This document shows, piece after piece, positions 39,811 through 60,458 of a stretch of 64,000 nt of DNA. Origin of the DNA: Cladopsammia gracilis (Eukaryota; Cnidaria; Anthozoa; Scleractinia; Dendrophylliidae); NCBI GenBank assembly GCA_022457155.1, contig JAJGOT010000122.1:420001-484000 (forward strand), written 5' to 3'. The position numbers and the translations under genes are program-made. The notes below the pieces were generated by a model that was not told the origin of the DNA, did not search any database, and saw only the letters and a program-made list of their open reading frames with translations. Positions within the stretch are counted from its first letter, which is position 1; the number at the start of each line of letters is the position of its first letter.

Positions 39811-40108
39811 AGTAGTATAAGAGTTGGGGGCTCCAGATCAAAAAATAATTATTTTTGATCTGATTTCCACTCAACTCTATACTACTTTCCATATGATGGT
39901 AACCAGTTTTTTTTGTTTCCATTTAATGCAAACCAGTTTTTGGAAAACTATATGTTTCCATAAAATAATTAAACTATATGTTTCCATAAAATAATTAAAC
40001 TATATGTTTTATAAAAAACAAAGTGCGTTTATTCCATTGCGTGATTCCACATAATAGAATCATTTGCGTGACACAATTCTCGGAAACACAGGTAGTCTTT
40101 GATTCTTA
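39811..40108 (+). repeat. Polinton left terminal inverted repeat with hairpin tip
   Basis: Matches the reverse complement of about 60163-60458. The first 76 bp fold on themselves: AGTAGTATAAGAGTTG pairs with CAACTCTATACTACT (one bulge), and AGATCAAAAAT pairs with ATTTTTGATCT. Tandem AACTATATGTTTCCATAAAA units follow (about 39946-40012). Confidence 0.9.
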
Positions 40109-40116
40109 TAAAAATA

Positions 40117-41419: not shown

Positions 41420-41446
41420 CCTGTTGCGTGGCATTCTCAGAAAAAC

Positions 41447-41482
41447 AGGAAGTCATACGTCATTCAAAGGGGGTTTTCCCTA
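41447..41482 (+). repeat. Intergenic GGAAGTCATACGTCATTC...GGGGGTTTTCCC module
   Basis: Third copy of the module also seen at 40117-40154 and 59130-59163. It lies between the VLTF3-like gene and the minus-strand block. Confidence 0.5.
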
Positions 41483-41549
41483 TGAATGAGTTATTGAATA
41501 AAGTTTGTTAGTAAAGTTTATCGTAAAAAGTAAAGTTTGTTAGTAAAGT

Positions 41550-42047: not shown

Positions 42048-42067
42048 TATATTATATATTTGGATAA

Positions 42068-42469
42068 TTATATTTTAGGATTTGAAAGAACACAATATAA
42101 TACACCACTTATTTGGCCCATTATTGGAGATCTTTTTATTTTCTTAGGCAATGAATGGTAACAATATGTGTATCCAGGCCCCTTTCCATAGTCATTGTAA
42201 AATCTTCCAAATGCATCATGAAAAATAGCATGTTTAATTAAAAATTGGTATTTGGTGTTTATAGTACAAGAACCTGGTCCTATTAATCCAATGTCAGGGT
42301 GTTTTGCTAATATTTGGTTCATTGATATTGACTCATTCAAATAGTTTACATACAAAAATTGATATATTAAAGCCGATTTTAATATTTCATCTTTAGTATT
42401 AGGATGTAGGGTTTTTTGGGCTGTGAAAAATTTATTACAAAAATTAATTGCTTGCTCCAAATTCGGCAT
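42068..42469 (-). CDS. Unknown 133-residue Polinton protein
   Basis: From ATG 42469, preceded by AATAAATATAC. Compact mixed composition with YQFLYVNYLNE, GPGSCTINTKYQFLI and GPGYTYCYHSLP. No signal peptide, transmembrane helix or zinc motif. No family recognised. Gene order and a start motif like its neighbours support it as real. Confidence 0.6.
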   Translation of the reverse strand: MPNLEQAINFCNKFFTAQKTLHPNTKDEILKSALIYQFLYVNYLNESISMNQILAKHPDIGLIGPGSCTINTKYQFLIKHAIFHDAFGRFYNDYGKGPGYTYCYHSLPKKIKRSPIMGQISGVLYCVLSNPKI

Positions 42470-42588
42470 GTATATTTATTGATTATATTAAATTAGCTTT
42501 TATATATAAAAATATGGTGTATGTTTTTCCTATGTGATTAAAATTGAAGATGCCTGTTTTAGTTATTATATAATGTATTTATACTAAT

Positions 42589-44337
42589 TTATGGTGTGGT
42601 ATATTCAATTAGTATTGATATGTCCTGATTCTTAATCGGTTCGACCATCTCCACAGCCATATGACCATATGGTAAATCTAAGTTTATATCTATCGTTTGT
42701 CTTTGACTTCCAGATAAACTATAGGTTGTTATTTGAGTTAAAGAGAACCCATAGAATATTTTTAAGGATATTGTTTTGTAGGAAAAATCTAAGAGATTAT
42801 AGTGACCTATTATTTTTTTTAATTGACATCCGTTTGGAATTATTATTTTGTCACAACCGTTTAATAAAAACGTTTTACCCCCATTATTATCTGTTTTTAA
42901 TTGCCCCAATATGTGATGGGTTGCATTCATGATTTTGTATGAATTCATATTCAAATCAGTTTGCATGACCATCTTTTGATTTTCAAAAATGAAAGGTGCA
43001 TCGAAGACGCTGCTTTCAACATCAGGTTGAGAACCTTTGACACCATATGTGATCAGATTTGCATCTCCTTCTGCAGCTGACTCGGCAGTTCCCCGCCATT
43101 TCAGATCTAGAAATATATATTCAGGTGGAGAAATCTGCCATTTATGCATGTGGATGATGGATCTTGTATAAGTCGAAAACTTCTTTGTTGATTGTTGATT
43201 GATATTCAGACTTGTGCTCACGACATTAACACTAACACCATCCATTAACGCTGGGAAGAATTCAATGCAAATAGTGTATTCTCCTTCTGGTAATTTGTAC
43301 ATATTGAACCCAAGTCTCCCAGAGTATTCATTAAAAGGATCTTTTGTTATTTTCAAATCGTACGCCTTCTTATTGAAATGATGTGGAGAACTTGAAAAAT
43401 CAGTTATTCCAGTCACTGTCATATTATGTTCAGAGCTGGATTCATCAATGTCTTCCATCAGATACCGGAATTCATCTTTCGGATGGGAGGTTGATGAGAT
43501 ATGCGATTCATTTACGTATTTTTTAAGCTTCTCTTCTAATTCTATCGTGTGGACTACCACACCTCCTATCTGGTTATCCACATAAGATTTTGACGTGGGT
43601 TGATGCTTGAGAGTTGGCGTTGCAATATTGTTGATTTGTTGCGAGTTCATATCCAGGTTTCCGGTCATTGTTCCACCTTCCAACGAAAGCTTTTTCGCAG
43701 ATTGGGCATCCACATATCTTTTATTTGCGCCTTGGTCATCGACAGTTGGGTCTTTCACGTTAAAAATGGTGTGATTTCCCATATCCAAAGCCGTCTCCAT
43801 TGGAAACGTCTCTTTGCGGGATACGAAGATATTCTTGACATCATTGTAAGAAACTAGATTGTTATAATGTGCTCCCAAATCATGCCATGTTTGTTGTTTT
43901 GATTGGATAATATTGTACATCTCCTTCAAATCAATATCTTTAGTCACTTCATGAGTGTGAGCTGGAGCATTAGGATGATATTTTTTCAAAGTGATCATAT
44001 TGACGGCAGAAAGATCATTGTCTTCATCCGTATCCATATTTGTGATTAGTTTTCGATCCATATCAATTTCTCCGGGTAGAATTAATTTATTTCCTCGCAG
44101 ATCCAAATCTGCAGTCATATGAGTTGTTCCATCTAACTTTAAATAATGCGTGTCTCCATACTCTTTGTTGACGACATCTTTAAAATTTGTAGGATCCTTG
44201 ACATTAACTAATTTCTTGTTTTGCATATCATAATCACCATCATCTGTCAATTTGAACCCTACGCCGGGTAATCCACGTTGTGGTGTCGCCATTGATGTTG
44301 ATGTTGACGATGGTAAAATTCCATTTGAGTAACTCAT
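42589..44337 (-). CDS. Phage-tail-fibre-like protein
   Basis: About 582 residues from ATG 44337, chosen because it abuts AATTATAT; an ATG at 44367 would overlap the ATPase. The N-terminal half repeats the phrase found in phage tail fibres: LDMxxxxIxNVxDPT...AxxKxYVD, e.g. YDMQNKKLVNVKDPT, LDMGNHTIFNVKDPT and GGTMTGNLDMNSQQINNI...KSYVDNQI. Such repeats form trimeric beta stalks. The C-terminal 300 residues look like beta-rich head or knob domains. A spike role on the virion is inferred. It directly follows the packaging ATPase. Confidence 0.75.
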   Translation of the reverse strand: MSYSNGILPSSTSTSMATPQRGLPGVGFKLTDDGDYDMQNKKLVNVKDPTNFKDVVNKEYGDTHYLKLDGTTHMTADLDLRGNKLILPGEIDMDRKLITNMDTDEDNDLSAVNMITLKKYHPNAPAHTHEVTKDIDLKEMYNIIQSKQQTWHDLGAHYNNLVSYNDVKNIFVSRKETFPMETALDMGNHTIFNVKDPTVDDQGANKRYVDAQSAKKLSLEGGTMTGNLDMNSQQINNIATPTLKHQPTSKSYVDNQIGGVVVHTIELEEKLKKYVNESHISSTSHPKDEFRYLMEDIDESSSEHNMTVTGITDFSSSPHHFNKKAYDLKITKDPFNEYSGRLGFNMYKLPEGEYTICIEFFPALMDGVSVNVVSTSLNINQQSTKKFSTYTRSIIHMHKWQISPPEYIFLDLKWRGTAESAAEGDANLITYGVKGSQPDVESSVFDAPFIFENQKMVMQTDLNMNSYKIMNATHHILGQLKTDNNGGKTFLLNGCDKIIIPNGCQLKKIIGHYNLLDFSYKTISLKIFYGFSLTQITTYSLSGSQRQTIDINLDLPYGHMAVEMVEPIKNQDISILIEYTTP

Positions 44338-44353
44338 ATATAATTGAGTTATA

Positions 44354-44989
44354 TTATATTTGTTCATCAAAATTCTTAGTTATCAATTTCCGTTGTTTAT
44401 CAATATACAAGAAGCAAAATGGTTCTTTAGTTGCTTTCTCATATAATTCTTTTGGAATAGTGTTTTCACGGCAAATTAGACTCCTCTCATTAGCACTTGG
44501 GAATTCGTAAATAGAGAAATGTGAACAGTTCAATCTTATGTCTTTTGGTGTCTTATAGTAGCTTTGACTCAGATAAATCACACTGCAATTTTTATGTCTC
44601 CCTCGTATAAAATAGTCAATTAATGGTTTTTGGTTTTTTTCACATACGAAATCGTCGAATATTACTATTTTCTGACTTTCACTATCAAGATGATTTACGG
44701 GAATAATTTGATCATTACTTGCTTCAATAACATCATAACCAGCTTCATCAGTTATTGGCTGGAATATATCCATAAGATTCTTGTACTTGGACTGCTCTAA
44801 GTTTTTAGCATATAGGTATATTTTATCAAAGTACAGTAGATTGCATATCATATGCATTAGTGTGTTTCTTTTACCAGAACCACTAGGTCCGCAAACCAGC
44901 ATCCGAAAACATTTATTTGGCATGAAATCATATAACTGTTTAAAGTTTGAGACAACATCGTCTTCAACGTCATAATTTGGTATTTTCAT
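44354..44989 (-). CDS. FtsK/HerA-type genome packaging ATPase (A32-like)
   Basis: 211 residues from ATG 44989. P-loop CGPSGSGKRNT at residues 33-43; Walker B KIVIFDDF; sensor-like VIYLSQSYY; C-terminal FPSANERSLI. The family packages DNA into capsids. Position 41, Thr or Ser in active P-loops, is Arg (codon at 44867-44869, AGA; one base from ACA), which should block Mg-ATP binding. Preceded by CATATAATATAA. It heads the minus-strand block opposite the plus-strand block, sharing the divergent region 44990-45124. Confidence 0.85.
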   Translation of the reverse strand: MKIPNYDVEDDVVSNFKQLYDFMPNKCFRMLVCGPSGSGKRNTLMHMICNLLYFDKIYLYAKNLEQSKYKNLMDIFQPITDEAGYDVIEASNDQIIPVNHLDSESQKIVIFDDFVCEKNQKPLIDYFIRGRHKNCSVIYLSQSYYKTPKDIRLNCSHFSIYEFPSANERSLICRENTIPKELYEKATKEPFCFLYIDKQRKLITKNFDEQI

Positions 44990-45124
44990 TTATATTATAT
45001 GGGTATATTATTTCAATATAACATGGTGTATAACACGGTGTATAACACGGTGTATAACACAGTGTAAAACGTTATTTTTTATATATGATTTTCATTTTTA
45101 TGTAATGTAATAATATAATAATAA
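44990..45124. promoter_or_regulatory. Divergent promoter region between minus and plus gene blocks
   Basis: 135 bp separating two start codons, each abutting a TATAATATA-type motif. The centre holds the 12-bp repeat array at 45021-45068. Confidence 0.6.
45021..45068. repeat. Four 12-bp repeats ACACGGTGTATA
   Basis: Units ACATGGTGTATA, ACACGGTGTATA, ACACGGTGTATA, ACACAGTGTAAA. Each holds a dyad ACAC-N-GTGT, as expected for tandem binding sites of a dimeric factor, or iterons. Confidence 0.8.
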
Positions 45125-46144
45125 ATGAGTTTACTTAAATGGAAAGAACTTGCAAAGAATAAATCTGAATTAGGAAATAAGATTAATTATGTTCATAATA
45201 TAATAACGAAACATGATATTGGTCAGCAGACAAGCCAACAGTCATTGGCGAAGGTATTTAAACCAGTGACTAGTAAATTAGATGATGTTATTGACAGTAA
45301 TTTAGATTTAAGGATGCCTCAGAGAAAAAAGCGACCACCTAAGAAAGGTGAGCCTGGTATTGACTATATGCCTGAAGTTGATCCATATGAAGACATGGAT
45401 GTAGAAGGTCTGATTGATTTTGGTGATTATGTACCACCACAGCCAGAAAAACAACTAGTGCCAAAACCACCAAAATATGAAGAATCTTTACAAGATATTA
45501 TGGAAGGAAAGAAGGAGATTTATGTTGATCCTCAGTACTTCCCTCAGGAATTTGATGATTTACCACCAGAATATGATGACGACGAAGAGATCGACTATGG
45601 ATTATACGATGAAGATATAAGTAATGAAATTTTAAATGATATGGGTGTTATGGATTATGAAAATGTGGATAAGAGATTGAATCAACCAGAAATGACAAAC
45701 CAAAAAACTAGGGCCTATCTTAAAAAGATTATAAAGGAGGCTAAATCCAAAAGGGCTCAATTAAGTGGCTATAAAGCAACTGTTACAAAACAATACAATA
45801 AGGGGGAGATATCATCAGGTGAAAGACAAGTACGGAACAAAAGAATAAACAACGCGAGAGTTACTTTAAATGAATACATAAAACATTATGAGACTAAACT
45901 GGGAACAATAAAAGGTTCCGGGATCAAGAGTCGGGGAAAAAAACAGAGAGGTGGAAATATTATGTTTTATAATGATATAAAGCAGCTTTTGAAAAAATTG
46001 GAATTGATTATTGGTGAAAGATTGGCAGGGAATACCAGCATTGAGATGCGAAATATGGGAGTAACTATATTGGACACATTGAAAATGTCGACAATCAATA
46101 GACCGCAATATAATAAATTGTTTAGTCAATATTTCAAAATATAA
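45125..46144 (+). CDS. Virion-associated protein with two PPxY motifs
   Basis: 339 residues. The basic N-terminus leads to a Pro/Asp/Glu-rich middle with PPKY (115-118) and PPEY (147-150), matching the PPxY late-domain motif that binds NEDD4-type ligase WW domains. A Lys-rich helical part follows. IKGSG (262-266) fits the (M/I/L)xGx-G cleavage pattern of adenovirus-type proteases, and a C-terminal helical domain lies beyond it. First gene of the plus block; the ATG follows TAATATAATAATAA. A structural or precursor role is inferred. Confidence 0.65.
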   Translation: MSLLKWKELAKNKSELGNKINYVHNIITKHDIGQQTSQQSLAKVFKPVTSKLDDVIDSNLDLRMPQRKKRPPKKGEPGIDYMPEVDPYEDMDVEGLIDFGDYVPPQPEKQLVPKPPKYEESLQDIMEGKKEIYVDPQYFPQEFDDLPPEYDDDEEIDYGLYDEDISNEILNDMGVMDYENVDKRLNQPEMTNQKTRAYLKKIIKEAKSKRAQLSGYKATVTKQYNKGEISSGERQVRNKRINNARVTLNEYIKHYETKLGTIKGSGIKSRGKKQRGGNIMFYNDIKQLLKKLELIIGERLAGNTSIEMRNMGVTILDTLKMSTINRPQYNKLFSQYFKI

Positions 46145-46166
46145 TTAATATAACTTTATTATATAA

Positions 46167-46910
46167 ATGGAACGAGAGATAGTATTATCATCTTATAGTG
46201 TAAAAGATCAAGGGAATAATAAACCTGAGGATTTTACAACAAAATTTACTAGACCTATAATTTTGGATAGAAATATGCAATATGTTATTGGTCTTAACAG
46301 AATCATCAATATGAGTTTTACATGGTTTAATATTAATGCTGGATACAACAATCAATTAATCAAATATAGCTCCGATAGTGGTTCAACATTTAACATCACC
46401 TTTCCAGCTGGAGTGTGGAATTATACAGACTTCAACACATATATCAAGGAGATAACAAAGACTGGTGATACGTATCCGATCACTCTTGAATTCGATAATA
46501 CAACATTCAGAGTAACGATAGTATTGGCTCAGAATTACCAACTTGATCTAACCCATTCCAATTTCAATGAACTCATCGGGTTTGATAAGAAATTATTACA
46601 AAGTGGGACGAATATAGGGCCAAGAGTGCCTAATCTATCACAAGATACAGATGTATTGAATATCCATTGTGATCTGATTAATGATTCACTTGTAGACGGT
46701 CAAGATACGGACATAATTTATTCCTTCTCAACCAGTGTTCTCCAACCTAGTTATTCATTCACCTTAGAACCCCGGAGAATCACCTATAATCCTGTGAATA
46801 AGAATACGATTTCTAGTATAAGGATTTATATCACCGATGGAAAAAGAAGATTAGTTGACCTGAATGGGGCAGATACATCATTTTCACTAATCCTGAAAAG
46901 TTTAGAATAA
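46167..46910 (+). CDS. Penton (minor capsid) protein, single jelly roll
   Basis: 247 residues, beta-rich. Features recognised from Polinton pentons: SSYSVKDQGNNKPEDFTTKF at the start, GVWNYTDFNTYI, LIGFDKKLL, DTDVLNIHCDLI, DTDIIYSFST and the end RIYITDGKRRLVDLNG. Penton proteins form the pentameric vertices of the icosahedral capsid. The start abuts TTATTATATAA. It lies 22 bp after the PPxY gene and just before the pVI-like gene and the major capsid gene. Confidence 0.8.
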   Translation: MEREIVLSSYSVKDQGNNKPEDFTTKFTRPIILDRNMQYVIGLNRIINMSFTWFNINAGYNNQLIKYSSDSGSTFNITFPAGVWNYTDFNTYIKEITKTGDTYPITLEFDNTTFRVTIVLAQNYQLDLTHSNFNELIGFDKKLLQSGTNIGPRVPNLSQDTDVLNIHCDLINDSLVDGQDTDIIYSFSTSVLQPSYSFTLEPRRITYNPVNKNTISSIRIYITDGKRRLVDLNGADTSFSLILKSLE

Positions 46911-46928
46911 TATAACATAATAGTATAA

Positions 46929-47327
46929 ATGAAACCATATGAATTCAAAAGATTTTACCATCCACAACTTGGTAAATTTGTATATCAACACAAAGGGTCT
47001 GGGCTTATCGTTGATAATATTTTCAAACCATTAAAGAGTGTGGCATCAGCTGTTTTTAAGAAATTTGCTAAGCCAATAGCAAAGAAGGCACTAGAATCAG
47101 GGATATCGCATGCAGGTAAGCGATTGGGTGAGGCAGTATCACAGAAGTCAGGAGACCTAATAATGAAAAGATTGGCAAATTTGAGAAAAGGAGCTACAAG
47201 ACAAACGGCAAATGTTCCATCCTCACCCATTAAACAGCAACAGCAAGATGAAAGTACTGATATGATACTCAATAGATTGATATCAGGATCTGGTGTGAAA
47301 AGAAGGCGTAGAGTAAGAGTAGTATAG
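46929..47327 (+). CDS. pVI-like minor virion protein
   Basis: 132 residues. HKGSG near residue 23 precedes an amphipathic helix (VDNIFKPLKSVASAVFKKF). ISGSG at residues 118-122 leaves an 11-residue basic C-terminal peptide beginning at the second Gly (GVKRRRRVRVV). In adenoviruses pVI has the same plan: an N-terminal cleavage exposing a membrane-active helix, and a C-terminal basic 11-residue peptide that activates the protease. The protease is encoded nearby (49468-50070). The start abuts ATAATAGTATAA. Homology is inferred from layout rather than sequence identity. Confidence 0.65.
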   Translation: MKPYEFKRFYHPQLGKFVYQHKGSGLIVDNIFKPLKSVASAVFKKFAKPIAKKALESGISHAGKRLGEAVSQKSGDLIMKRLANLRKGATRQTANVPSSPIKQQQQDESTDMILNRLISGSGVKRRRRVRVV

Positions 47328-47407
47328 AATCAATAAAATGATTGAAAACATCTATATATTACAAAATTATGGTATATAATTGTAAAATTATCTAACATAA
47401 TAATATA

Positions 47408-48694
47408 ATGTCGTTTAGAACAAGTGAATATCTGCAAAGATATGAGTTGGTACGATTCCAACTTGATGATGTAATCAGAGCCCCAGCTAACAATCAACAC
47501 CAAGTGAAAAATGGGTATAAATTCACGATCAATGATCGATCGAGTTTCTACGATTGGTATAATGCATATTTTGAAGTTCAATTTCAGCTTCAAAAACTAG
47601 CAGATGGAGCAGGCTATGCCCAAGCTGATAGAATTACAATTATAAATGGATCACATAGTTTAATTGATCATCTTATGATTAAATCTGCAGGTAAAATAGT
47701 TTATGATACTGATAATTTGCATAAAGTGACTTTCGTAAAAAATTTGTTAGAATACTCTGATGATTTTAGCAGATCAGTAGCTAAAAACAGTTTCTGGTAT
47801 TTAGATACTGATAATACAACAGCTAATACCAATACAGGATATGAAGCTAGACGAGTACAAACTCAAGCTGTACAAAACGATGGTAATGGAGGCGCTAAAA
47901 ACATCAATATTATTATTCCGTTAAATCGTTTTTCATTTTTTGAAGAACTTGAAGATAAAATGTTAGTACCTATGCAATTACAATTCAACATTGAGCTACA
48001 AAATGATGATGAACTAATTCACATGGCTAATGGTACTGATGCTGGCAGAATTGTTGTTAATAGGTTTCTGCTTTGGGTTCCAAAATTAACACCAAAAGAT
48101 TCTCTGTATGATAAATTTGTTAGTTCATTTTTGAAAGAAACACAATGGAAATATTTAAGGGAGATGTATGAATTGTCAGCTCCTTCACAATCATCAGGAT
48201 TTTTCCAAATATCAAGTAGTATTGATAATGTTCAACATATTTTTGTTTATTTAAAAAGAACCAACCCACCTAATGATGCAATGGTTGAAGATTCGCCTTA
48301 TTTAATGGACACTTTTAAATTAAATGTAGGAAATAACAACTCATCATTACTAAATTGCAGATTAGAGTATGGTAACGGAGTCTTTTATCCAGAAACTGAG
48401 TATGATTCGGAATCAAAAGTAAGAATGTTTAATGATTTAATGTCATACGGTTTTAGGAAAAACGACTATAATAGTGGAACTCAATTGAATTTAGCAAATT
48501 ACAATTCTCTATATGGATTAATTTATTTTGATCTTACATATCAAACTGAAAAAGTAACAAGAGATCCAAAACAGCTTATATTTCGATATACATTAACTGC
48601 TAACCCAGCTGCGAATTTTAATGTACATGCTATAGTTTTGTATAAGGAAGAAGTTGTTATTGATAAGGTTGGTAATGAATTGGTTATAGTGTAA
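47408..48694 (+). CDS. Major capsid protein, double jelly roll
   Basis: 428 residues. Polinton MCP features: DDVIRAPANNQHQVKNGYKF, SSFYDWYNAYFEVQF, GSHSLIDHLMIKSAGKIVYDT, IIIPLNRFSFFEELEDKMLVP, LQFNIELQNDDEL and RFLLWVPKLTPKDSLY. The protein trimerises into hexon-like capsomers of an icosahedral virion. Length is in the family range with no breaks. The ATG directly follows AACATAATAATATA. Confidence 0.88.
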   Translation: MSFRTSEYLQRYELVRFQLDDVIRAPANNQHQVKNGYKFTINDRSSFYDWYNAYFEVQFQLQKLADGAGYAQADRITIINGSHSLIDHLMIKSAGKIVYDTDNLHKVTFVKNLLEYSDDFSRSVAKNSFWYLDTDNTTANTNTGYEARRVQTQAVQNDGNGGAKNINIIIPLNRFSFFEELEDKMLVPMQLQFNIELQNDDELIHMANGTDAGRIVVNRFLLWVPKLTPKDSLYDKFVSSFLKETQWKYLREMYELSAPSQSSGFFQISSSIDNVQHIFVYLKRTNPPNDAMVEDSPYLMDTFKLNVGNNNSSLLNCRLEYGNGVFYPETEYDSESKVRMFNDLMSYGFRKNDYNSGTQLNLANYNSLYGLIYFDLTYQTEKVTRDPKQLIFRYTLTANPAANFNVHAIVLYKEEVVIDKVGNELVIV

Positions 48695-48782
48695 AAAGTA
48701 ATAAATTACTAATCAAATAATATCATTATTTCATATATGTTTTATAACCAGAAAATTATATAACATATATTATATACAACAA

Positions 48783-49562
48783 ATGACTCAACTTTATGAG
48801 ATTAATGTGAAATTGTCTGACAATCAAAAGAAAAATCTTAGCAATGCTTTCCATGAAAGGGAAACGATCGTTCTAAGACTTACGAAGGACTCTCTTCGTG
48901 GTAATGATACTCTACATGTCCCGGCAATGGTGAAAAAAAGGTTGGAGAAAAATCGACTATTGAATAAGGGTATGGACATTAAGCTTGTGAAAACAAATAT
49001 TAGAAAACAAGTCGGTGGAAGTTTGTTAACTACTATTCTAACCCTTGGACGTGCAGCTTTACCAACTATTGGTAAAACCCTTGGTCTTTCAGCTCTTGCT
49101 GGTTTGGCTTCAGAAGGTGCTAGTCAGGTTGTTAAAGCTATATCTGGAAAAGGCATACAGTCTGGTGGTTTTCTCATACCACAAGAAAAAATCAATAAGC
49201 TGATAGAATATAAGCATCTTTTATCGACGAAACAAAAACAGGATATATTGAATGCCCTTCAATCAGGTTCGGGTGTTCATATCACACCAACAAAAACACA
49301 ATCAGGAGGATTTTTAGGCACTCTGTTGGCAAGCATTGGTGTTCCATTACTCCTAAATGCTCTAACTGGTAAAACTGGAAGTGGTGCTCCTAGACTCGGA
49401 ACTAGTAAGAAAAAAGCTGGTAGAGGAGCTCCAAGACTAGGCATATACAGACAACCACCTCCATTTTATGGGAGTTGGCCTGATAATACGATTGGTATGG
49501 GGATTAAAAAAAAAACAACCAAAAAAAAAAGACAACAAAAAGAGGCGAAGGCTTGCTATTAG
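48783..49562 (+). CDS. Hydrophobic core/pX-like virion protein with PPFY motif
   Basis: 259 residues in this frame. N-terminal alpha/beta domain, two hydrophobic segments (about 81-116 and 177-195) separated by GSG/SGG sites (QVGGS, QSGGF, QSGSG, TGSG), a repeat GAPRLG, then PPPFYGSW with a PPxY motif (226-229), and a Lys-rich end. It stops at 49562 just after two A10 tracts (49506-49515, 49521-49530). The -1 frame continues to a TAA at 49610-49612 with a Leu/Gly-rich hydrophobic tail that I associate with this family's normal C-terminus. Slippage or an indel in the A-runs is likely. Confidence 0.65.
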   Translation: MTQLYEINVKLSDNQKKNLSNAFHERETIVLRLTKDSLRGNDTLHVPAMVKKRLEKNRLLNKGMDIKLVKTNIRKQVGGSLLTTILTLGRAALPTIGKTLGLSALAGLASEGASQVVKAISGKGIQSGGFLIPQEKINKLIEYKHLLSTKQKQDILNALQSGSGVHITPTKTQSGGFLGTLLASIGVPLLLNALTGKTGSGAPRLGTSKKKAGRGAPRLGIYRQPPPFYGSWPDNTIGMGIKKKTTKKKRQQKEAKACY

Positions 49563-50070
49563 GGAAAAACAGCCCATTCAATGGCATCCCACTACTAGGG
49601 GCAATACTGTAAAACCGAAATTCCACAAAGACATCCCGTTAAGTAATCATGATCTAATAAAATGGTGCAGATATTTAAACATTCCAATCAGTGATGTTCT
49701 GTCAAGGGATGAAAGAGTTCCACATAATCATAGCCAAGCATTATTTATTTACAATCTGGAACCTAGTTATATGGCAGGATCTCATTGGGTTACAAGTTAT
49801 GTAAAAGACAACGTGATAAATTATTTTGACAGTTTTGGTATGCCTCCATTTCAAGAGATCGTAAATCATGCAAAAAGAAAGAATTTAACTCTGTTACATC
49901 AAAATAATCAAATCCAAAACATAAAAACGTCTACATGTGGCTACTTCTGTTTATACTTTCTGAACGAAATGAATAAGGGGAATTCGTATTATAATTTATT
50001 GCAAGTATTTGACATATATGATACAATGAAGAATGAGATATTCCTCGAACATTATTTCAGAAATATCTAA
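49468..50070 (+). CDS. Adenovirus-type cysteine protease (C5/Ulp1 fold)
   Basis: Catalytic residues in the family order: His106 in GSHW, Asp121 in YFDSFG, Gln149 and Cys157 in STCGYFC. The conserved lead-in is LSNHDLIKWCRYLNIP. The protease matures virion proteins at GG/GxG sites. The reading frame opens upstream at ATG 49468, inside the preceding gene, and no start motif precedes it. The next in-frame Met is within the catalytic region. Expression by slippage at the A10 tracts is possible. The true N-terminus is uncertain. Confidence 0.8.
   Translation: MGVGLIIRLVWGLKKKQPKKKDNKKRRRLAIREKQPIQWHPTTRGNTVKPKFHKDIPLSNHDLIKWCRYLNIPISDVLSRDERVPHNHSQALFIYNLEPSYMAGSHWVTSYVKDNVINYFDSFGMPPFQEIVNHAKRKNLTLLHQNNQIQNIKTSTCGYFCLYFLNEMNKGNSYYNLLQVFDIYDTMKNEIFLEHYFRNI
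49506..49530 (+). other. Double A10 slippery tract at the core-protein/protease overlap
   Basis: Ten A, CAACC, ten A. The upstream gene reads frame 0 here, the conserved-looking tail is in the -1 frame and the protease in the -2/+1 frame. It could be a recoding site or an indel hotspot. Confidence 0.5.
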
Positions 50071-50082
50071 CTTATATATGTA

Positions 50083-50241
50083 ATGGTAAAATCATATTGT
50101 GTTAGACAGAAGAAAGTCACTGAATGTGTTCCAGGAAGCGAACGATATGTGAAAACTAAAAATGGTCGAACTATGTTGAAATGCACTTGCGCTGAATGTG
50201 GTATAACAAAGACCAAATTTGTTAAAAATAAGGGAAACTAA
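50083..50241 (+). CDS. Zinc-ribbon protein (DUF5679-like)
   Basis: 52 residues from ATG 50083, which follows CTTATATATGTA. Cys6, Cys34, Cys36 and Cys39-Gly with KNGRTML resemble the small DUF5679 zinc ribbon. The usual second Cys of the first knuckle appears as Gln9, with Cys15 available instead. The ORF ends AAG GGA AAC TAA: an in-phase G-GGA-AAC slippery heptamer right before the stop, followed 6 nt on by a GC-rich stem. The -1 frame opens exactly there and continues into the PLA2 ORF. In related Polintons the ribbon and PLA2 are, as I recall, one protein. Confidence 0.65.
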   Translation: MVKSYCVRQKKVTECVPGSERYVKTKNGRTMLKCTCAECGITKTKFVKNKGN

Positions 50242-50264
50242 AAGGCCCGTCTGAAGGGGCGGGC
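50232..50264 (+). promoter_or_regulatory. Candidate -1 ribosomal frameshift signal, zinc ribbon to PLA2
   Basis: GGGAAAC (50232-50238) is in X-XXY-YYZ phase with the zinc-ribbon frame. The stop TAA is at 50239-50241. A 6-nt spacer precedes a stem GCCCGTCT/GGGCGGGC with loop GAAG (50245-50264; eight pairs, two of them G-U). The PLA2 frame has a TAA directly upstream at 50229, so it opens at the heptamer. Confidence 0.65.
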
Positions 50265-50306
50265 TTATTTGATATTGAAGGAAGTCACAGTCTTGGAGAG
50301 ATAGCT

Positions 50307-50858
50307 ATGAAAGCCGGTATGAAAGGTCTTTACAATTTAGGACGTGTAGGGGTGTCAAAGGCAATAAAATCAGACTTTGCTAAACAAAAGATCAAAGGTA
50401 TGGCTAACAAATATCTGGATCAAGCTTTGGATAGTATTACATCAGATTTATCAAAGAAAATAGATCCTTTACACAAAGGCGGTGCTATTGATATACATAA
50501 GGCCATTGGGAAGCTTCCGAAACCAAAAGGAGGGTGGACATTACCCGGTCATAAATATACTGGGCCTTATAATGATTTAGAGAGTCAAGTGAAATATGAC
50601 CCAACAACTGGCCAAATATTAGAAATATATGACCAACCTACAGGAAGAACGGATGCCATTGCCGTGCAGCATGATGTTGATTATAGTGTTTGTAAAGACG
50701 ACAGAAAATGTAAGAATAGAGCAGACCGAAAAATGGTTAAATCTTTAGACAACGTACCGTATAATGAAAGACAATGGGGACATTGGTTGGCTAGAAACAC
50801 GATTGATATAAAACAGAAATTAGGTCTTGGTGTTAAAAAAAGGAAGCCAAAAAACTGA
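50307..50858 (+). CDS. Phospholipase A2 domain protein (parvovirus VP1-like fold)
   Basis: 183 residues from the first ATG, but the frame is open from 50232. The N-terminal helix-rich part has GSHS/GG phrases. The PLA2 core has a calcium loop LPGHKYTGPYN (79-89), the catalytic His-Asp pair QHDVDYSVC (121-129) and a second Asp in RADRKM (140). Such domains open endosomal membranes for incoming virions in parvoviruses. No AT-rich start motif precedes ATG 50307, supporting translation by frameshift from the zinc ribbon. Its own end (CCA AAA AAC TGA) is a second in-phase slippery site leading into the integrase frame. Confidence 0.75.
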   Translation: MKAGMKGLYNLGRVGVSKAIKSDFAKQKIKGMANKYLDQALDSITSDLSKKIDPLHKGGAIDIHKAIGKLPKPKGGWTLPGHKYTGPYNDLESQVKYDPTTGQILEIYDQPTGRTDAIAVQHDVDYSVCKDDRKCKNRADRKMVKSLDNVPYNERQWGHWLARNTIDIKQKLGLGVKKRKPKN

Positions 50859-50900
50859 AAGCGGCGTTGAGTAAAAATGATTGGGCTCAACAATTAGCCG
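50849..50900 (+). promoter_or_regulatory. Candidate -1 ribosomal frameshift signal, PLA2 to integrase
   Basis: AAAAAAC (50849-50855) is in X-XXY-YYZ phase, with TGA stop at 50856-50858. A 6-nt spacer precedes a stem: CGGC (50862-50865) pairs GCCG (50897-50900), GTTGAG (50866-50871) pairs CTCAAC (50886-50891), with a 5-nt bulge and a 14-nt loop. The integrase lies in the -1 frame, open from a TAA at 50834 through this site. Confidence 0.65.
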
Positions 50901-51817
50901 ATGAATTACATAAGCCAATCAAACGAAAATTTAAAACAAGAAGAGTTATTGTTAATGGAATAGATGATATTTGGAGCGCTGACCTTGTAGAAATGCAGAA
51001 GTTTTCAAAATGGAATAAAGGTTATAGATATTTGTTAAACATCATTGATGTGTTTTCGAAATTTGCTTGGAGCATCCCTATTAAAAATAAAACAGGTAAT
51101 ACAATTACTGAATCATTTGATGATATTATTAAAAAATCCAAACGGAAACCTAAATTTATTTGGGTAGACCAAGGGTCTGAATTCTATAATAAAACTTTCA
51201 AAGACTGGTTAAAGAAAAATAATATTGAGATGTATTCTACTTTCAATGAAGGTAAAGCTGTTGTTATTGAGAGATTTAACAGAACATTAAAATCTAAAAT
51301 GTGGAAACAATTCACAGTTCAAAATAATACTGTTTGGCATAATATTTTAGATGATTTGGTTAAAAATTACAACAACACTAAGCACAGTTCAATAAAAATG
51401 TCACCGCTTCAAGCATCTAAGAAAAAGAATGAAGGAACTGTTTATTTCAATCTATATGGTGATATGGAACCATCATCATCAAAAGTAAAATTCAAAGTTG
51501 GTGATAAGGTTAGAATTTCAAAGTATAAAAGAAAGGTATTTGATAAAGGATATACTCCAAATTGGTCTGAAGAGGTATTTACAGTTGATAAAATCCAATA
51601 TTCCAATCCAATAATATACAAATTGAAAGATCTCAATAATGAACCAATAGAAGGGTCATTTTATGAACCTGAATTACAATTAGCAAAACAGGATGTATTT
51701 CGAATTGATAAGGTTATCAAAAGAGATTATAAGAAAAAACAAGCGTTAGTAAAATGGAAGGGATATAGTGATGATTTTAATAGTTGGATACCGCTAAAAG
51801 ATGTTAAAAATATATAA
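50867..51817 (+). CDS. Retroviral-type integrase with C-terminal chromodomain
   Basis: The frame runs without an ATG before the catalytic core; TTG 50867 sits where related proteins start. The core has Asp39 (WSADLVEM), Asp101 (VDQGSEF) and Glu135 (VIERFNRT), the rve catalytic triad. An SH3-like segment (VKFKVGDKVRISKYKR) and a chromodomain (FRIDKVIKRDY, ALVKWKGY, WIPLKDV) follow. It inserts the element with 6-bp duplications; chromodomains can guide insertion to modified histones. Lack of an ATG and start motif, together with the slippery site at 50849, points to synthesis as a PLA2-integrase frameshift product. Confidence 0.85.
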   Translation: MSKNDWAQQLADELHKPIKRKFKTRRVIVNGIDDIWSADLVEMQKFSKWNKGYRYLLNIIDVFSKFAWSIPIKNKTGNTITESFDDIIKKSKRKPKFIWVDQGSEFYNKTFKDWLKKNNIEMYSTFNEGKAVVIERFNRTLKSKMWKQFTVQNNTVWHNILDDLVKNYNNTKHSSIKMSPLQASKKKNEGTVYFNLYGDMEPSSSKVKFKVGDKVRISKYKRKVFDKGYTPNWSEEVFTVDKIQYSNPIIYKLKDLNNEPIEGSFYEPELQLAKQDVFRIDKVIKRDYKKKQALVKWKGYSDDFNSWIPLKDVKNI

Positions 51818-51827
51818 TGTTTATATA

Positions 51828-52007
51828 ATGAGAGATATTAGTAGACATATCAGAAAAATTGAAAGTCGAATCTATGATTGTGAAGAAGAATTAGTATATC
51901 TTCATGACAAAATACGCGATAATGAAGAGAGGTTGGACATGTTACAACATAAGGAAAAACTATTGAAACTTTATCATAAAAAATACATGAAATGGATGCA
52001 GATATAA
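51828..52007 (+). CDS. Small coiled-coil protein
   Basis: 59 residues from ATG 51828, which abuts GTTTATATA; the open frame extends to 51801 inside the integrase gene. Heptad-like charged helix (IRKIESRIYDCEEELVYLHD, ERLDMLQHKEKLLKLYHKK). No family recognised. It overlaps the next small ORF. Confidence 0.55.
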   Translation: MRDISRHIRKIESRIYDCEEELVYLHDKIRDNEERLDMLQHKEKLLKLYHKKYMKWMQI

Positions 52008-52135
52008 CATTGAAACAGTTATTAAAGATTATCTGTGACGAGATAGAAAACGATAATTATGACGAAGATTGTAATATATTGGAACAAACCAAAGTTGATG
52101 ATATAAAATATCTGAAGCGACAAAATTTTGATTAA
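51992..52135 (+). CDS. Small acidic ORF, unknown
   Basis: 47 residues from ATG 51992, overlapping the end of the coiled-coil gene by 16 bp. Acidic composition (CDEIENDNYDEDCN). The overlap is typical of compact virus-like gene layouts, but support is weak. Confidence 0.35.
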   Translation: MDADITLKQLLKIICDEIENDNYDEDCNILEQTKVDDIKYLKRQNFD

Positions 52136-52294
52136 AGAGTGTTGGTTTTAAAGGGTTAAAGAGATGTTGCTATTTACAAGTAGCCCATATCTCAGATTTA
52201 CTCTGTATTCGCTTTTTGTAGCCAAAAATATCAATGTTTCTGGCCGCATTTAAAACGCAACTATTTAAAAGAATATCTATAGGAATAATATATA

Positions 52295-52379
52295 ATGGAA
52301 AAAGAAATAATAAAGAGAGGTAAAGGACGACCAAGAATTTATAATGATGAAGAAAGAAAAAACCACAAATCAGTCTATA
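52295..52379 (+). pseudogene. Small AT-hook/zinc-finger gene, 5' piece
   Basis: The start abuts AATAATATATA. 28 codons with a KGRPR AT-hook-like core run into the inverted repeat of a nested element, where TGA follows within two codons. The frame resumes exactly at 55069 beyond the TA duplication. The intact gene would have about 75 codons. Confidence 0.7.
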
Positions 52380-52440
52380 TGTGACCCTCCATACGAAAAC
52401 ACGTCTTATCAAACATTGTAATTTAGTGAAACCGGGTTTC

Positions 52441-52640
52441 AAAAGGGTTTCCAAAGGGTTTCAAACCCCCTGAAACCGGGTTTCCAAAGGGTTTCGAAAG
52501 GGTTTCGAACGGGTTTCCAAAAGGTTTCCAAAGGGTTTCCAACGGGTTTCTAAAGGGTTTCCAAAGGGTTTCCAAAGGGTTTCTAAAGGGTTTCCAAAGG
52601 GTTTCTAAAGGGTTTCCAAAGGGTTTCTAAAGCGTTTCTA
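52441..52640 (+). repeat. GGGTTTCCAAA satellite-like array, left
   Basis: About 17 units of 11 bp with variants GGGTTTCTAAA and GGGTTTCCAAC. Confidence 0.85.
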
Positions 52641-54799
52641 AAGTGTCTAAGCGCTTCCGAAAGGGTTTGCAAACTCGTCATACCGTTTAATCAGCCTTGC
52701 TTTTGTATCATATCGTTGAAAACTATAACTAAGAAGACGTAATGAAAATTACCTGCAACATGTTGTTCCAACTAATTTCTGTGTAAAAATATCGAAGCCC
52801 ATTTATGTTCACGTCAGCGATAAAACTTTAAAAAATCGCGGCGTGTCTCTCTCGACAGATGAATTTCGCGCAAGATCATAAAATTTACGGCCGGGTGAGC
52901 GTGAATGCATCAGGTTTCTGAATTAATTTGTGAGCCGAAAAATATTTTTAGCATGCTATTTTGATGTTTATACTCTAAATTAAAATTGCTACCTTAAAGA
53001 AAAAATGCATCAGCTACATTCCTGGTTGCGAAATTTAATGATAATCTGAAGATAATCCCAGGACTGGTGTACTCTGTTTTCTCTGGTTTGCGTGACCGTA
53101 ACCTAAACACACCATGGCGTGTTCGACAAAAGTGGTTCGATTCTGAACCGAGATACAACGTTCATAAATAGCTGCTTGCAAATTGGTTCGAATAGAGACA
53201 TTGTGATTTTGATTGCAGCGATAGTTTTTTTACAGCCTTTGATTTTTGACCTTTTCACAAAGTTTTCTTTTCAACTCCGTATCTTTTGTTTACTATATTA
53301 CAGTAAACCGGAATAGTCAATGAAATGAACTGGCCCGCCTCCGCCGCGCATACCTTATGGTTTATAATGAAAACTTCTAAACAAATTGCCCCTAGTGGCA
53401 ATACAAGCCAGAAAAATGTAACAAGCATAACCTACAGTTCGTCGAAATCTGTTAAAAACTGTTTCTAAACCTGCCGTTTTCAAACTCACGCAAAATCGAA
53501 AAATTATCGGCCGGATGAGCGCGAACGCATGAAGTTTCAGGATTAATTTGCGGGCCGTAAAATATTTTTTAGCACGCTATTTTGATGTTTACTCAAATCA
53601 AAACCGACTTGTGAAATGAAAAAGCCTACTTATTCGCGGGCGGTCACGTTACGAACTTTGTAATATGCGTTGTTTACAAACATCTCATGAATTAAGTTTT
53701 AAGTTTTTTTTTGCTCCTTGGCCATCATCACTTTCATAACATTCGATTATCGATACACATTTTATTCAAGACTTAAGTTTTATTCAACAAAATAAACTAT
53801 AAGTTTTATTCAACAAGTTTCCCGAAAATGTTTCGATCTTTGACCGTATGCAAATATTCGATTTGAGCGCTTTTTCAAGTCCAAAGATATCTCCCGCGGG
53901 AATACGCTGTCGGCTCATTCCTTAAGTCTGTGAGATTATTTCCTGCTGGAAAAAAGCGGGAGAACTTTGCTCTTTCACAACCCTCATCTTCATTCCACTA
54001 TGTTCCTTTTTCCGGGAAAAATCATTTGATAAGATACACGTTATTCACATGATGAATTTATTTGTCGGTGAAAGTAAAAACGCAAAGAAACGAAATTTGA
54101 TACTCGTGCCTTTCTGACTACGTGACATGACTTGTGATTTAAGCGTGCAACGAAGAATTTGAAAGAAAGCAAGATTTGACACATGCCGAAAAAACTCACA
54201 AGTTCAAAGCTACTGATATCATAATTAATGACTACCTTCAAAGGCAGAGTATTTTACTGTTTCAATTGTAACTTTATATGTGTTGTGGAATCCACGATAT
54301 TCAATGCAAATCAATGCGGCCGCGCCGACAAATTGGCGCCCGCTTCTATGTATTTGCTCGCAATAAAGTAAACGAGAAATACTCGGCACATCGTGGAAAT
54401 TTTCATCACTACAGATTGTGCTTTTACCTCCAAAGATAAATAATAGTGGGGAAAGCGTCACCTACTCCGAATGGCAGTGTTATAATCTATGACGAGCGAG
54501 ATGTTTATAAAGTCATTGGAGTACGCATTGTCGAAATGGTTGCATGGCAAGCAAATGCAGACAATTCATACGGCTGTTGTTTCTCTCCGGCGAAAACAAA
54601 TTGATTTGTTTTACTCTCAAAAGACTTAGATTTTCAATACGGTGTTAGCGGTTTTGGTTGTTTACGTTTGCAACATAATCAAATGCATCGATAGCGCAAG
54701 TGTTTTAACAGAAAGCGAAACCATTCAAATGAATTAACAACAGCCCTAATTTAAAAGACAAAAAATGTAGGAAGCAACGCCGAATTTCTCTTTCAGCGT

Positions 54800-55000
54800 T
54801 TCCAATGGGTTTCGAACGGGTTTCCAAAGGGTTTCTAAAGGGTTTCCAACGGGTTTCCAAAGGGTTTCCAACGGGTTTCCAAAGGGTTTCCAACAGGTTT
54901 CCAAAGGGTTTCCAAAGGGTTTCTAAAGGGTTTCCAACGGGTTTCCAAAGGGTTTCCAAAGGGTTTCAAACCCCCCAAAACCGGGTTTCCAAAGGGTTTC
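54800..55000 (+). repeat. GGGTTTCCAAA satellite-like array, right
   Basis: About 17 units in the same orientation as the left array, ending at AACCCCCCAAAA next to the inverted repeat. Confidence 0.85.
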
Positions 55001-55068
55001 TAAGTGACCTCGAACCCCCCAAAAAACGCTTTTGTTGATAAGACGTGTTTTCCTATGGAGGGTCACAT

Positions 55069-55212
55069 ATGTTAAATAAAGAATGGTTTTGTGATATATG
55101 CAAAAATGATAAAAATTACACACTTGCTGGAAAATCTTGCCACATTAAAACAAAAAAGCATATACTAAACTATAGAATGAAACATATGCGAATAGTATAT
55201 ATAGATGAATGA
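55069..55212 (+). pseudogene. Small AT-hook/zinc-finger gene, 3' piece
   Basis: 47 codons with FCDICKND and later SCHIKTKKH, a C2H2-like finger, and a basic tail ending at TGA 55210-55212. It continues the frame of 52295-52379 precisely when the nested element and one TA are discounted. Confidence 0.7.
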
Positions 55213-55228
55213 TCTTTTCATATTATAG

Positions 55229-55259
55229 TTCGAAGGATCCATGATTGGGATCCTTTGAA
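55229..55259. terminator. Perfect-loop hairpin upstream of the polymerase gene
   Basis: TTCGAAGGATCC and GGATCCTTTGAA with a 7-nt loop (one G/A mismatch position), 70 bp before the polymerase ATG. It could end upstream transcripts; the role is not established. Confidence 0.4.
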
Positions 55260-55328
55260 TTCTTGATAAAGATTAAACGCACTTTTATGAGAACATATTT
55301 AAAGAATTATCTATAGTTAATATATAAT

Positions 55329-58300
55329 ATGAACAAGAGTGATCTTGAGAAACTTAGTAAGTCTCAACTAATCAAATTGCTTTTAAAGCAACAGAATAAG
55401 AAGCCTAAAACTATTGTGGTAAATGATACCAAACCAGTTCCAACACCAAGAACTTACAAACCAGTGCCAGCACCTCGTAAGAGTGTAAATCAAATGGTCC
55501 AAGATTATGAAAACAATATAATTCTTCCACCATTGGAATTCAGGGATAAACCAGTTCCAGCACCTAGAACTAAAAAGTCAGTTGCAGAAAAACCAGTTCC
55601 TGCTCTAAGAACTAAAATAGAGCAAACAGACAAAGCTCTAAAAGGTTATACTAAATCCTATGAAATCACAATTAAAAACGATAAAGACCCATTAGTTCAA
55701 CTACAAAACACTGGAAAGGGTATTGAATACCAGCTCATAAAAATATTAACATCGATGAAAGGACTGAAATTTGTTGAAACGCTTAAGGTAACATTTACAA
55801 AAATGTCAGACGGAGAAATAGTGTATAAGACCGCATATTTTAACAGTGTGGCTCAGACGATTATTAACCACATAGAAATTGCTGAATCACTACAATTGTC
55901 AAAACAGCAAATCTTGAATAAGATAGCTCAATGGATATCTGAAGGGTCTGGTTGGACTGTTAAATCGGTTGATAATCATTATATTAACATAGTAAAATAT
56001 CAACCAATGAGAGGCTCTTCATACATTAAACTACCACAAGAACTCAGAAACAGTGCAAAGGGATTGATAAATATGAAAAATGAGGATGATGAATGCTTTA
56101 GGTGGTGTCACATTAGACATTTGAATCCTCAAGACAAATACCCACAGAGAATTAAAAAAGTTGACAAACCATTCTTTGAAAATTTAAATTATTCAGGGAT
56201 TGAATTCCCAGTCACCACCAAACAGTACAACAAGATAGAAAAACAAAATAAGATCAACATCAATGTTTTCGGTTATGAAGATCGACAACCATACCCAATT
56301 TATGTCTCAAAAGAAAAATATGAAGACCGTATGAATCTGCTTCTGATAACAGAAAATGAAAAAAAGCACTATGTATTGATCAAAGATTTTAACAAGTTAA
56401 TGTACAATCAGACAAAACACAAAGAAAGAAAACATTTCTGCATGTATTGTCTTCAATGCTTCAGCTCTGAAAGAGTATTAACTGATCATAAAGAAAACTG
56501 TATACAAGTGAATGGCACACAAGCTATAAAAATGCCTGACAAAAATGACAACATATTAAAATTCAATAATTTCCATAAACAACTACCAGTACCATTTGTT
56601 ATTTATGCAGATTTTGAGGCTATTACTGAAAAAATACATGGTTGTCAACCTAATAATGATAAATCATACACTAAAGAATACCAAAAACATACAGACTGTG
56701 GTTATGGTTATAAAGTAGTTTGTTGCTATAATGATCGGTATACTAAGAAGGTTCAATCTTATAGGGGTGAAAAGGCTGTTTATAAATTTATGGAAAAGAT
56801 GCTAGAAGAAGTTAAGTATTGTAAAAATATTATGAAAAAGGAATTTAACAAACCATTAAAAATGACAAAAGATGATGAAGAGGAATTTCAAAAAGCTAAA
56901 GAATGTCATATTTGTAATAAAAAATATACTGATAAGGACATTCGAGTTCGAGACCATTGCCATATTATAGGTAAATACAGAGGCTCTGCTCATCAAGATT
57001 GTAACCTGAAACTCAAAATAAAACCAGAAGAAATAAAAATACCTGTTATATTTCACAACTTGAGAGGATATGATAGTCATTTTATAATGCAAGAGATTGG
57101 TGCTATTGTTAAGGAATATACATATACAAATAAGAAAGGTGAAAAGTGTGAAATGAATATCAATGCCATACCTAACAACATGGAGAAGTATATGGCTTTC
57201 ATGCTTGGTAATCATCTTACCTTCATTGATAGTTTCCAATTTATGAGCTCAAGTTTGGAAAACCTAGTGAGCAATCTACCAAAAAAATTGTTGAAATACA
57301 CCTCAAAAATTCAAAAGTGAAAAACTTGATTTAATGTCACAAAAAGGAGTCTATCCATACGACTTCATGGACAGTTTTGACAAATTCAATGAAAAGCTGC
57401 CACCAAAAGAAGAATTTTACAGCATATTGAATGATGAGCATATCTCAGATGAAGATTATAAACATGCTCAAAATGTATGGAATACATTCTCTCTTAAAAA
57501 TATGGGTGAGTACCACGACTTATATCTTAAATCTGACATACTTCTGTTAGCTGATGTATTCGAAAACTTTCGAAAGACCTGTCTGCAATACTATAAACTT
57601 GATCCTTGTCATTATTTCACGTCTCCAGGACTTTCATGGGATGCTATGCTAAAAATGACTAATATAAAACTAGAACTAATGACTGATATAGATATGTTCC
57701 AATTTATTGAAAAAGGTATGCGTGGTGGTATATCATATATAGCCAATCGATACGGAAAGTCAAATAATAAATACATGAAAACATACGATGAGAAGGCACC
57801 CTCAAAGTATATCATGTATCTAGACGCTAATAATTTATATGGTTGGGCTATGTCACAATACCTACCAACTGGTGGTTTTAGATGGATGACATATAAACAG
57901 ATTAACAACATAGATTTAGCTAAATACAATGAAAACAGCGAAAAAGGTTTAATATTAGAAGTTGATTTAGAATACCCCAAAGAGTTGCATGACCTTCATA
58001 ACGACTACCCACTAGCTGCTGAGAGGGTTTGTGTAAATAAAGATATGCTATCTGGGTATTGTAAAAAAATAGCTACCAAATATAATATATCAACAGGTAT
58101 AGTACAAAAACTGATACCAACATTGAGCAACAAAGAAAAATACGTTCTACATTATAGAAACCTTCAATTATATACAGATCTTGGATTAAAAGTCATTAAA
58201 GTTCATCGAGTATTAGAATTTAATCAGTCACCTTGGCTTAAACAATACATTGACTTCAACACCAACAAACGAAAGAATGCTAAAAATGCTTTTGAAAAAG

Positions 58301-60162: not shown

Positions 60163-60458
60163 TGAGAATCAAAAGACTTCCTGTGTTTCCGAGAATTGTG
60201 TCACGCAAAGGATTCTATTATGTGGAATCACGCAATGGAATAAACGCACTTTGTTTTTATAAAACATATAGTTTAATTATTTTATGGAAACATATAGTTT
60301 AATTATTTTATGGAAACATATAGTTTTCCAAAAACTGATTTACGTTAAATGAAAACAAAAAACTGGTTACCATCATATGGAAAGTAGTATAGAGTTGAGT
60401 GGAAATCAGATCAAAAATAATTATTTTTTGATCTGGAGCCCCCAACTCTTATACTACT
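60163..60458 (-). repeat. Polinton right terminal inverted repeat with hairpin tip
   Basis: Reverse complement of 39811-40108 with a few small differences. The last 76 bp (60383-60458) are self-complementary as at the left end. Confidence 0.9.

Follow-up and report, generated by a model that had tools for sequence, protein, structure and literature searches.

The window analysed here, the whole 64,000-nucleotide stretch of Cladopsammia gracilis DNA, comes from an 878-Mb assembly and contains a Polinton roughly 20.6 kb long. The element shows the features of the Polinton/Maverick group, namely terminal inverted repeats, an RVE integrase, a family B polymerase (DNA_pol_B_2 match, E 2.2e-15, to one piece of a split gene) and an A32/FtsK-like ATPase (Pox_A32 match, E 2e-11). 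No reverse transcriptase was seen in the element, and the 428-aa ORF at 47408-48694, sought as a double jelly-roll major capsid protein, is without a Pfam match. The polymerase gene of the window copy is spread over three ORFs in two frames (55329-59108), so this copy is decayed in that part. Between integrase and polymerase, at 52377-55070, a 36-nt inverted pair (97%) surrounds two arrays of an 11-nt unit, with about 19 and 15 copies, and the whole resembles a nested insertion. The genes and signals considered below are collected in Table 1.

Table 1. Features of the Polinton and of its two candidate frameshift sites, in window coordinates.
Feature	Position	Strand	Basis
Left terminal inverted repeat	39811..40100	.	
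ORF with weak adenain-like match	49468..50070	+	PF00770, E 0.052, 13.7 bits (cut-off 21.3)
Zero-frame ORF, 52-aa DUF5679-like zinc-ribbon protein ending ..KGN-stop	50083..50241	+	PF18930, E 6.1e-6
Slippery heptamer 1, G GGA AAC, in zero-frame phase	50232..50238	+	Recurs in copies and diverged elements
-1 frame ORF, phospholipase A2 (PLA2)-like protein, open from heptamer 1; first ATG 50307	50232..50858	+	PF08398, E 8e-10
Zero-frame stop TAA right after heptamer 1	50239..50241	+	Some copies have TGA or TAG instead
Hairpin 1, proposed stimulator; core stem 50245-50252 / 50257-50264, 6-nt spacer	50243..50266	+	Predicted fold and comparison
Slippery heptamer 2, A AAA AAC, in PLA2 phase, then TGA 50856-50858	50849..50855	+	118/130 copies
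RVE integrase with C-terminal chromodomain, -1 relative to PLA2; first ATG 50993 (Met47)	50855..51817	+	Pfam match, alignment
Candidate structure 2, hairpin	50862..50900	+	Predicted fold; 21/200 shuffles equal
Right terminal inverted repeat	60172..60458	.	

The first of the two sites lies at the end of the zinc-ribbon gene. Read from its ATG, the ribbon ORF ends ..AAG GGA AAC TAA, which places heptamer 1 in the phase X XXY YYZ. The codon before the heptamer in the -1 frame is TAA (50229-50231), and from the heptamer this frame stays open to 50855. The first-pass annotation had proposed that a canonical -1 signal here fuses the ribbon to the PLA2, and the parts it named are all found in the window: the heptamer in its phase with an immediate stop, the -1 frame that opens exactly there and runs into the PLA2, and the spacer (50239-50244) followed by a GC-rich stem of eight pairs. 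Its remark that the PLA2 ATG lacks the AT-rich start motif of other genes also holds. The 30 nt upstream of this ATG are 53% A+T, against 83-97% in the 30-nt leaders at 8 of the 11 plus-strand starts checked; the remaining low values belong to the protease ATG (60%) and the integrase ATG (57%), and four minus-strand leaders have 73-93%. The PLA2 ORF scores 39.3 bits against Phospholip_A2_4 (PF08398), passing the cut-off of 23.9. The ribbon reaches 26.7 bits against PF18930 (DUF5679), below the Pfam cut-off of 27, and is therefore called DUF5679-like. Its first zinc knuckle (ribbon, 50083-50238) is degenerate, C-V-R-Q, and a full CxxC pair is present in its relative P0144.

The earlier reading of this junction as a frameshift fusion of ribbon and PLA2 is supported, but it missed a second site, and the predicted end product is a ribbon-PLA2-integrase protein. 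The PLA2 ORF itself ends CCA AAA AAC TGA, a second heptamer in phase, and the -1 frame at this point is that of the integrase. Among 28 aligned integrases, Asp43 and Glu139 never vary and Asp105 hardly does. By the rve match and an alignment with foamy-virus integrase, Asp105 and Glu139 correspond to the second and third catalytic acids; Asp43, which lies before the start of the foamy-virus alignment, we take from the family pattern to be the first. The first ATG of the integrase encodes Met47, past Asp43, so a protein started at this AUG would lack the presumed catalytic residue. Elsewhere in the element, directly past the last polymerase piece, a second GC-rich hairpin is followed by a T-run (59144-59161). 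GGGAAAC at 59093 was considered as a further site; it is in phase and precedes this hairpin, but its -1 frame is closed and it was rejected.

Copies of the element were sought in the same genome. A search with window positions 50232-50855 gave 2,494 candidates, of which the best 150 were scored and 130 copies read, the window copy among them. A second search with P0075 gave 2,479 candidates; from the best 150, which were scored, 20 diverged elements were chosen by eye, leaving out copies already read. Both queries cover the -1 frame from heptamer 1 or from upstream of it, and only top scorers were taken, so that open -1 frames are favoured in these counts; the queries hold neither the zero-frame stop nor the ribbon in its own frame. 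Copies within one genome are also related and recombining, so the counts are not independent.

Heptamer 1 and its stop stand in the right phase to the PLA2 in 124 of the 130 copies, as GGGAAAC (110), TTTAAAC (12) or AAAAAAC (2). With the stop included, the forms are GGGAAACTAA (107 copies), GGGAAACTGA (3), TTTAAACTAA (11), TTTAAACTAG (1) and AAAAAACTAA (2); the other six copies (L040, L058, L068, L072, L112 and L126) have an altered, non-canonical heptamer. The ribbon motif is in phase with the heptamer, with the PLA2 in -1, in 114 copies, is +1 off in six and already in the PLA2 frame in eight, while two could not be classified. The zero frame is open over the 20 codons upstream of the heptamer in 111 of 130, and some ribbons contain stops. 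The window copy shares 98.2-99.8% identity with ten others (L002-L011) over at least 3.4 kb, so the architecture was copied recently.

This arrangement extends to more distant elements. Of the 20 diverged elements, 19 have GGGAAAC followed by TAA, TGA or TAG (L150 has no heptamer). In 16 of the 20 a ribbon motif precedes it in phase, some of these with stops further upstream; in L138 the stop comes one codon earlier, and no ribbon motif was recognised in L139 and L144. The 30 nt upstream of the heptamer have a pairwise identity of 52% among these elements. Across 49 distinct 70-nt stretches, pairwise identity is 0.82 in the heptamer, 0.97 in the stop, 0.49 in the upstream 30 nt and 0.69 in the stem-loop, the stretches being anchored on the heptamer, which somewhat favours its value. 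Heptamer, stop and stem, whose conservation the first-pass annotation had put forward for comparison across coral Polintons, are kept within this one genome, the stem by re-pairing as described below.

The second site recurs in a similar manner. Heptamer 2 is in phase with both the PLA2 (0) and the integrase (-1) in the 118 copies counted in Table 1. The twelve exceptions comprise two in-frame fusions (L020 and L077), one copy that is one A short (L021), one with G for A (L063) and eight whose integrase either has an altered start or was not matched in frame. Among the diverged elements, 17 of 20 could be read at this site, the windows of the other three being cut too far downstream, and 15 of the 17 have AAAAAAC with the integrase in -1. 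L166 has neither this arrangement nor a single-frame fusion. In L165, PLA2 and integrase run in one frame through AAAAAAACGG, and a strong hairpin remains (-17.1 kcal/mol), which suggests a switch between frameshift and permanent fusion.

The stimulatory structure of -1 frameshift signals typically lies about 5-9 nt downstream of the heptamer. In the predicted fold of hairpin 1, an A-U and a G-U pair are added at the base of the stem, giving ten pairs and -17.2 kcal/mol. None of 200 dinucleotide shuffles folded equally well for stretches of 26 and 33 nt, and 6 of 200 did so for 72 nt. Downstream of heptamer 1, the 130 copies contain 20 distinct 32-nt sequences, with three stems, GCCCGTC/GGCGGGC, GCCAGTC/GGCTGGC and AGCCCTC/GGGGGCT. 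Among the ten recurrent sequences, 0-4 of 200 shuffles equalled the native fold; for the ten single ones the range was 0-29 (L127 29, L122 15, L069 6), and in L087 and L127 the stem is visibly disrupted. A second shuffle run with seven representative hairpins gave 0-9 of 200.

Pairing was also scored over 31 distinct 36-nt stretches from 150 copies. As the third stem is one base out of register, stems were matched by best pairing rather than by a fixed alignment. All seven core pairs form in 23 stretches and at least six in all 31, against a mean of 0.4 (maximum 2-3) and 4.2 (maximum 10), respectively, in the shuffled control. Full pairing was found in 13 stretches with a spacer of 5 nt, 23 with 6 nt, 24 with 7 nt and two with 8 nt, and in none of the 31 at spacers of 0, 2, 3, 4, 9 or 10 nt. 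Five of the seven core pairs are seen in a form with both bases replaced, in one case in a single stretch. In copies carrying the hairpin termed B, the first triplet of the heptamer is GGG in 10, TTT in 12, AAA in two and broken in three. The stem thus keeps pairing while its sequence changes, and the heptamer switches among canonical types.

At site 1, then, a stable structure follows the heptamer at a 6-nt spacer, supported as a hairpin alone; simple hairpins generally stimulate less strongly than pseudoknots do. Structure at site 2 is weakly supported. Past heptamer 2 there are 25 distinct sequences, of which 14 were folded: 0-26 of 200 shuffles equalled the native fold for eight recurrent sequences and 1-81 for six single ones. 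Structure 2 is weaker than hairpin 1, and the diverged elements mostly fold weakly here, so that it is not clearly kept. A possible pseudoknot pairing of 50878-50884 with 50915-50921 was noticed by eye.

The -1 frame past heptamer 1 varies as coding sequence does. Over its codons 1-32, diversity at positions 1, 2 and 3 is 0.15, 0.16 and 0.31 (127 of 130 copies with an end anchor, 56 distinct sequences), and one serine is kept in 56 of 56 distinct sequences despite strong variation in its first two bases. Over the same codons a stop interrupts the -1 frame in 4 of 127 copies, and the zero frame has two to five stops per copy. The first in-frame ATG is at codon 56 in 75 of 130 copies, at codon 8 in 26 and at codon 25, as in the window, in 13, with another position or none in 16. 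The -1 ORF is therefore open through heptamer 1 with coding-like variation upstream of its own start. Given this variation from the heptamer onwards and a first ATG that is mostly 56 codons in, most copies would be translated in the -1 frame from the heptamer or close to it.

These observations bear directly on the view that PLA2 and integrase are separate genes with starts of their own, reached by AUG, near-cognate initiation, reinitiation or leaky scanning, and that the hairpin marks the 3' end or terminator of the ribbon gene. The hairpin does top the terminator-like sites in 40000-59999, in a scan whose promoter search is meant for bacterial promoters, and in 43 of 130 copies, the window type among them, the -1 frame contains an ATG no more than 25 codons past heptamer 1. 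Coding-like variation that begins 56 codons ahead of the first ATG in most copies is nevertheless difficult to reconcile with such starts, as are the missing AT-rich leaders at both ATGs and the loss of Asp43 from an integrase begun at its ATG. Of the 118 copies with heptamer 2, 112 have the integrase ATG at codon 47 or 48, eight codons past the start of the IW[SC]AD motif; 105 of these 112 are open as far as the ATG and seven contain an earlier stop. The other six copies differ. Ribbon homologues point the same way: a length-limited search gave 374 matches, and among the best 120, 49 retain Gly-Asn and continue into a peptide resembling the window stem translated past its stop; 50 end ..GN at the heptamer. 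Separate starts are thus very unlikely. The hairpin as a terminator alone was rejected on the re-pairing of its stem and the coding-like -1 frame.

Protein databases contain relatives in which the same domains are joined. A PLA2 search gave 2,153 matches, and the best 120 include a ribbon in the same frame in 76 by one motif and 72 by a stricter one. In ten of these 120 (for example P0049, with 206 members), Gly-Lys-Leu (or Arg) comes after an N-terminus that looks like a -1 reading of the ribbon tail, and these ten N-termini may represent that tail and then the heptamer. Lys-Asn shortly past the LGxG motif, as from heptamer 2, occurs in 44 of the best 120; 66 have Lys-Lys without Lys-Asn, and the LGxG motif was not found in seven. 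The ..GKKN ends of 30 of the best 120 were considered as heptamer 2 with its stop and rejected, the heptamer being the earlier Lys-Asn, present in 30 of 30.

Integrase matches numbered 7,209, and 29 of the best 120, judged by eye, also contain PF08398. P0144 holds ribbon, PLA2, integrase and chromodomain together, each above its Pfam cut-off (ribbon PF18930, 45.3 bits), P0165 joins ribbon, PLA2 and integrase in one protein, and in the integrase of a Trichoplax MELD virus (P0221) a ribbon-like N-terminus is fused directly. Named relatives come from Stylophora, Oculina and the Trichoplax MELD virus. Many solitary integrase entries start with Met where fused relatives have Leu, probably because TTG was taken as a start. 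These natural single-frame fusions point to the fused protein as a real product, and they do not undo the frameshift signal. Scans of IMG/VR with P0049 and with an integrase alignment yielded no relative, and a DNA pattern of heptamer plus stem matched 13 stretches there, none with a ribbon in the 30 codons upstream. Rfam gave a single chance-level match (E 1), and none at sites 1 or 2.

A change of frame could instead arise in the RNA, through transcriptional slippage on the A-run of site 2 or through splicing or editing. AAAAAAC does contain six A, and longer A-runs nearby vary in length between copies. GGGAAAC and TTTAAAC, however, contain no long homopolymer, and the seventh base at site 2 is C in 118 of 118 matching copies, in a search that permitted A, C or T. 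Coding is continuous across both sites, which would leave no room for an intron. We therefore consider a change in the RNA very unlikely.

A one-base indel would mean that ribbon and PLA2, and likewise PLA2 and integrase, were once a single ORF that is broken in the window copy. Single-frame relatives do exist, the element is decayed elsewhere, as its polymerase split over three ORFs attests, and the queries favoured copies with a -1 frame. Sister copies with one uninterrupted ORF and neither heptamer nor stem had been named at the outset as the finding that would indicate an indel; eight copies are single-frame, and 124 keep heptamer and stop. The same offset, heptamer and stop recur in these 124 and in 19 of the 20 diverged elements, and TAA, TGA and TAG are all in use. 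This argues against breakage, and a nearby junction illustrates what breakage looks like. Between the core-like gene and the protease-like ORF, 30 copies were examined and 18 could be read, with offsets of 0, 1 and 2 in four, five and nine; A-run lengths vary among these copies, which are about 98% identical. This is the pattern of indels. Half of the control copies (9/18) are also in -1, and -1 is kept far more firmly at sites 1 and 2. An indel at the two sites is accordingly also very unlikely. The protease-like ORF and the core-like gene before it overlap in different frames (49468-49562), the ATG of this ORF having the 60% A+T leader noted above, and this overlap may be either a third recoding site or an indel hotspot.

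Taken together, comparison among copies argues very strongly for a working -1 signal at site 1 and strongly for one at site 2. It is very probable that the two form a Gag-Pro-Pol-like cascade that yields ribbon, ribbon-PLA2 and ribbon-PLA2-integrase: there are two successive -1 sites, presumably on one transcript, and the last leads into the integrase. A single transcript from the AT-rich start of the ribbon gene would be read in three steps. Most ribosomes would end at the UAA at 50239 and release the 52-aa ribbon. Some would slip one base back on G GGA AAC, aided by the hairpin, and make a ribbon-PLA2 protein of about 258 aa by arithmetic. Some of those would slip again on A AAA AAC (50849) and produce ribbon-PLA2-integrase-chromodomain, about 578 aa. 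Falling yields would leave few integrase-bearing chains, and the PLA2 protein could bring these into the particle, as Gag-Pro-Pol does with retroviral integrase; Polinton virions are predicted. The fusion may then be cut by the neighbouring protease-like protein.

The mechanism class has well-known representatives. Gag-Pro-Pol of betaretroviruses and deltaretroviruses is made by two successive -1 frameshifts, and the heptamer types GGGAAAC and AAAAAAC are both known there. The Polinton shares with it the X XXY YYZ heptamers, a downstream structure, a structural protein upstream (here the PLA2 protein, a probable one) and an RVE integrase in the last product. It differs in being a double-stranded DNA element, in having a zinc ribbon and a PLA2 as upstream partners, and in the support for a hairpin alone at site 1. 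The OrfAB transposase of the IS3 family is likewise a DDE recombinase made by -1 frameshifting on an A-rich heptamer. Unlike the Polinton system, it is bacterial, uses one site and involves no structural protein.

Closer to Polintons, KnotInFrame predictions of -1 sites have been described in adintoviruses, for Penton C-termini and a Hexon-adenain fusion (PMC11071296); these belong to the same broad virus group and concern other proteins. In the accessible text of that paper, 'PLA2' is absent from the main text and the integrase is unnamed in the frameshift passages. In a Spodoptera Maverick, a PLA2-domain protein ('CAP') and an RVE integrase with chromodomain (INT) are both present and, in the portions available, are described as separate ORFs, the two mentions of 'frameshift' found there concerning errantiviruses (PMC5803895). 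As far as their accessible text goes, PMC11071296 alone proposes -1 frameshifting in the group, among PMC11071296, PMC8097293, PMC10120064, PMC12721341, PMC5803895, PMC11071308 and PMC4028283. In a search mostly confined to open-licence literature, no report of -1 frameshifting was found for the ribbon, PLA2 or integrase of this group. Programmed -1 frameshifting is thus known as a mechanism, and as far as searched its host and architecture here are new.

For the wider lineage, we lean towards a general version of this account, in which animal Polintons of this type make their integrase only as the last and rarest product of two tandem -1 frameshifts, relatives alternate between frameshift and permanent fusion, and integrase would be loaded into the particle of a DNA virus as in Gag-Pro-Pol; the upstream protease-like ORF may be a third such product. 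Automated annotation probably cuts such genes wrongly, and several database entries appear to be mis-started or to read a neighbour out of frame. If true, a double frameshift conserved in this way would link the integrase with a likely virion protein, account for its lack of a usable start codon, and place a retrovirus-style recoding cascade in double-stranded DNA elements.
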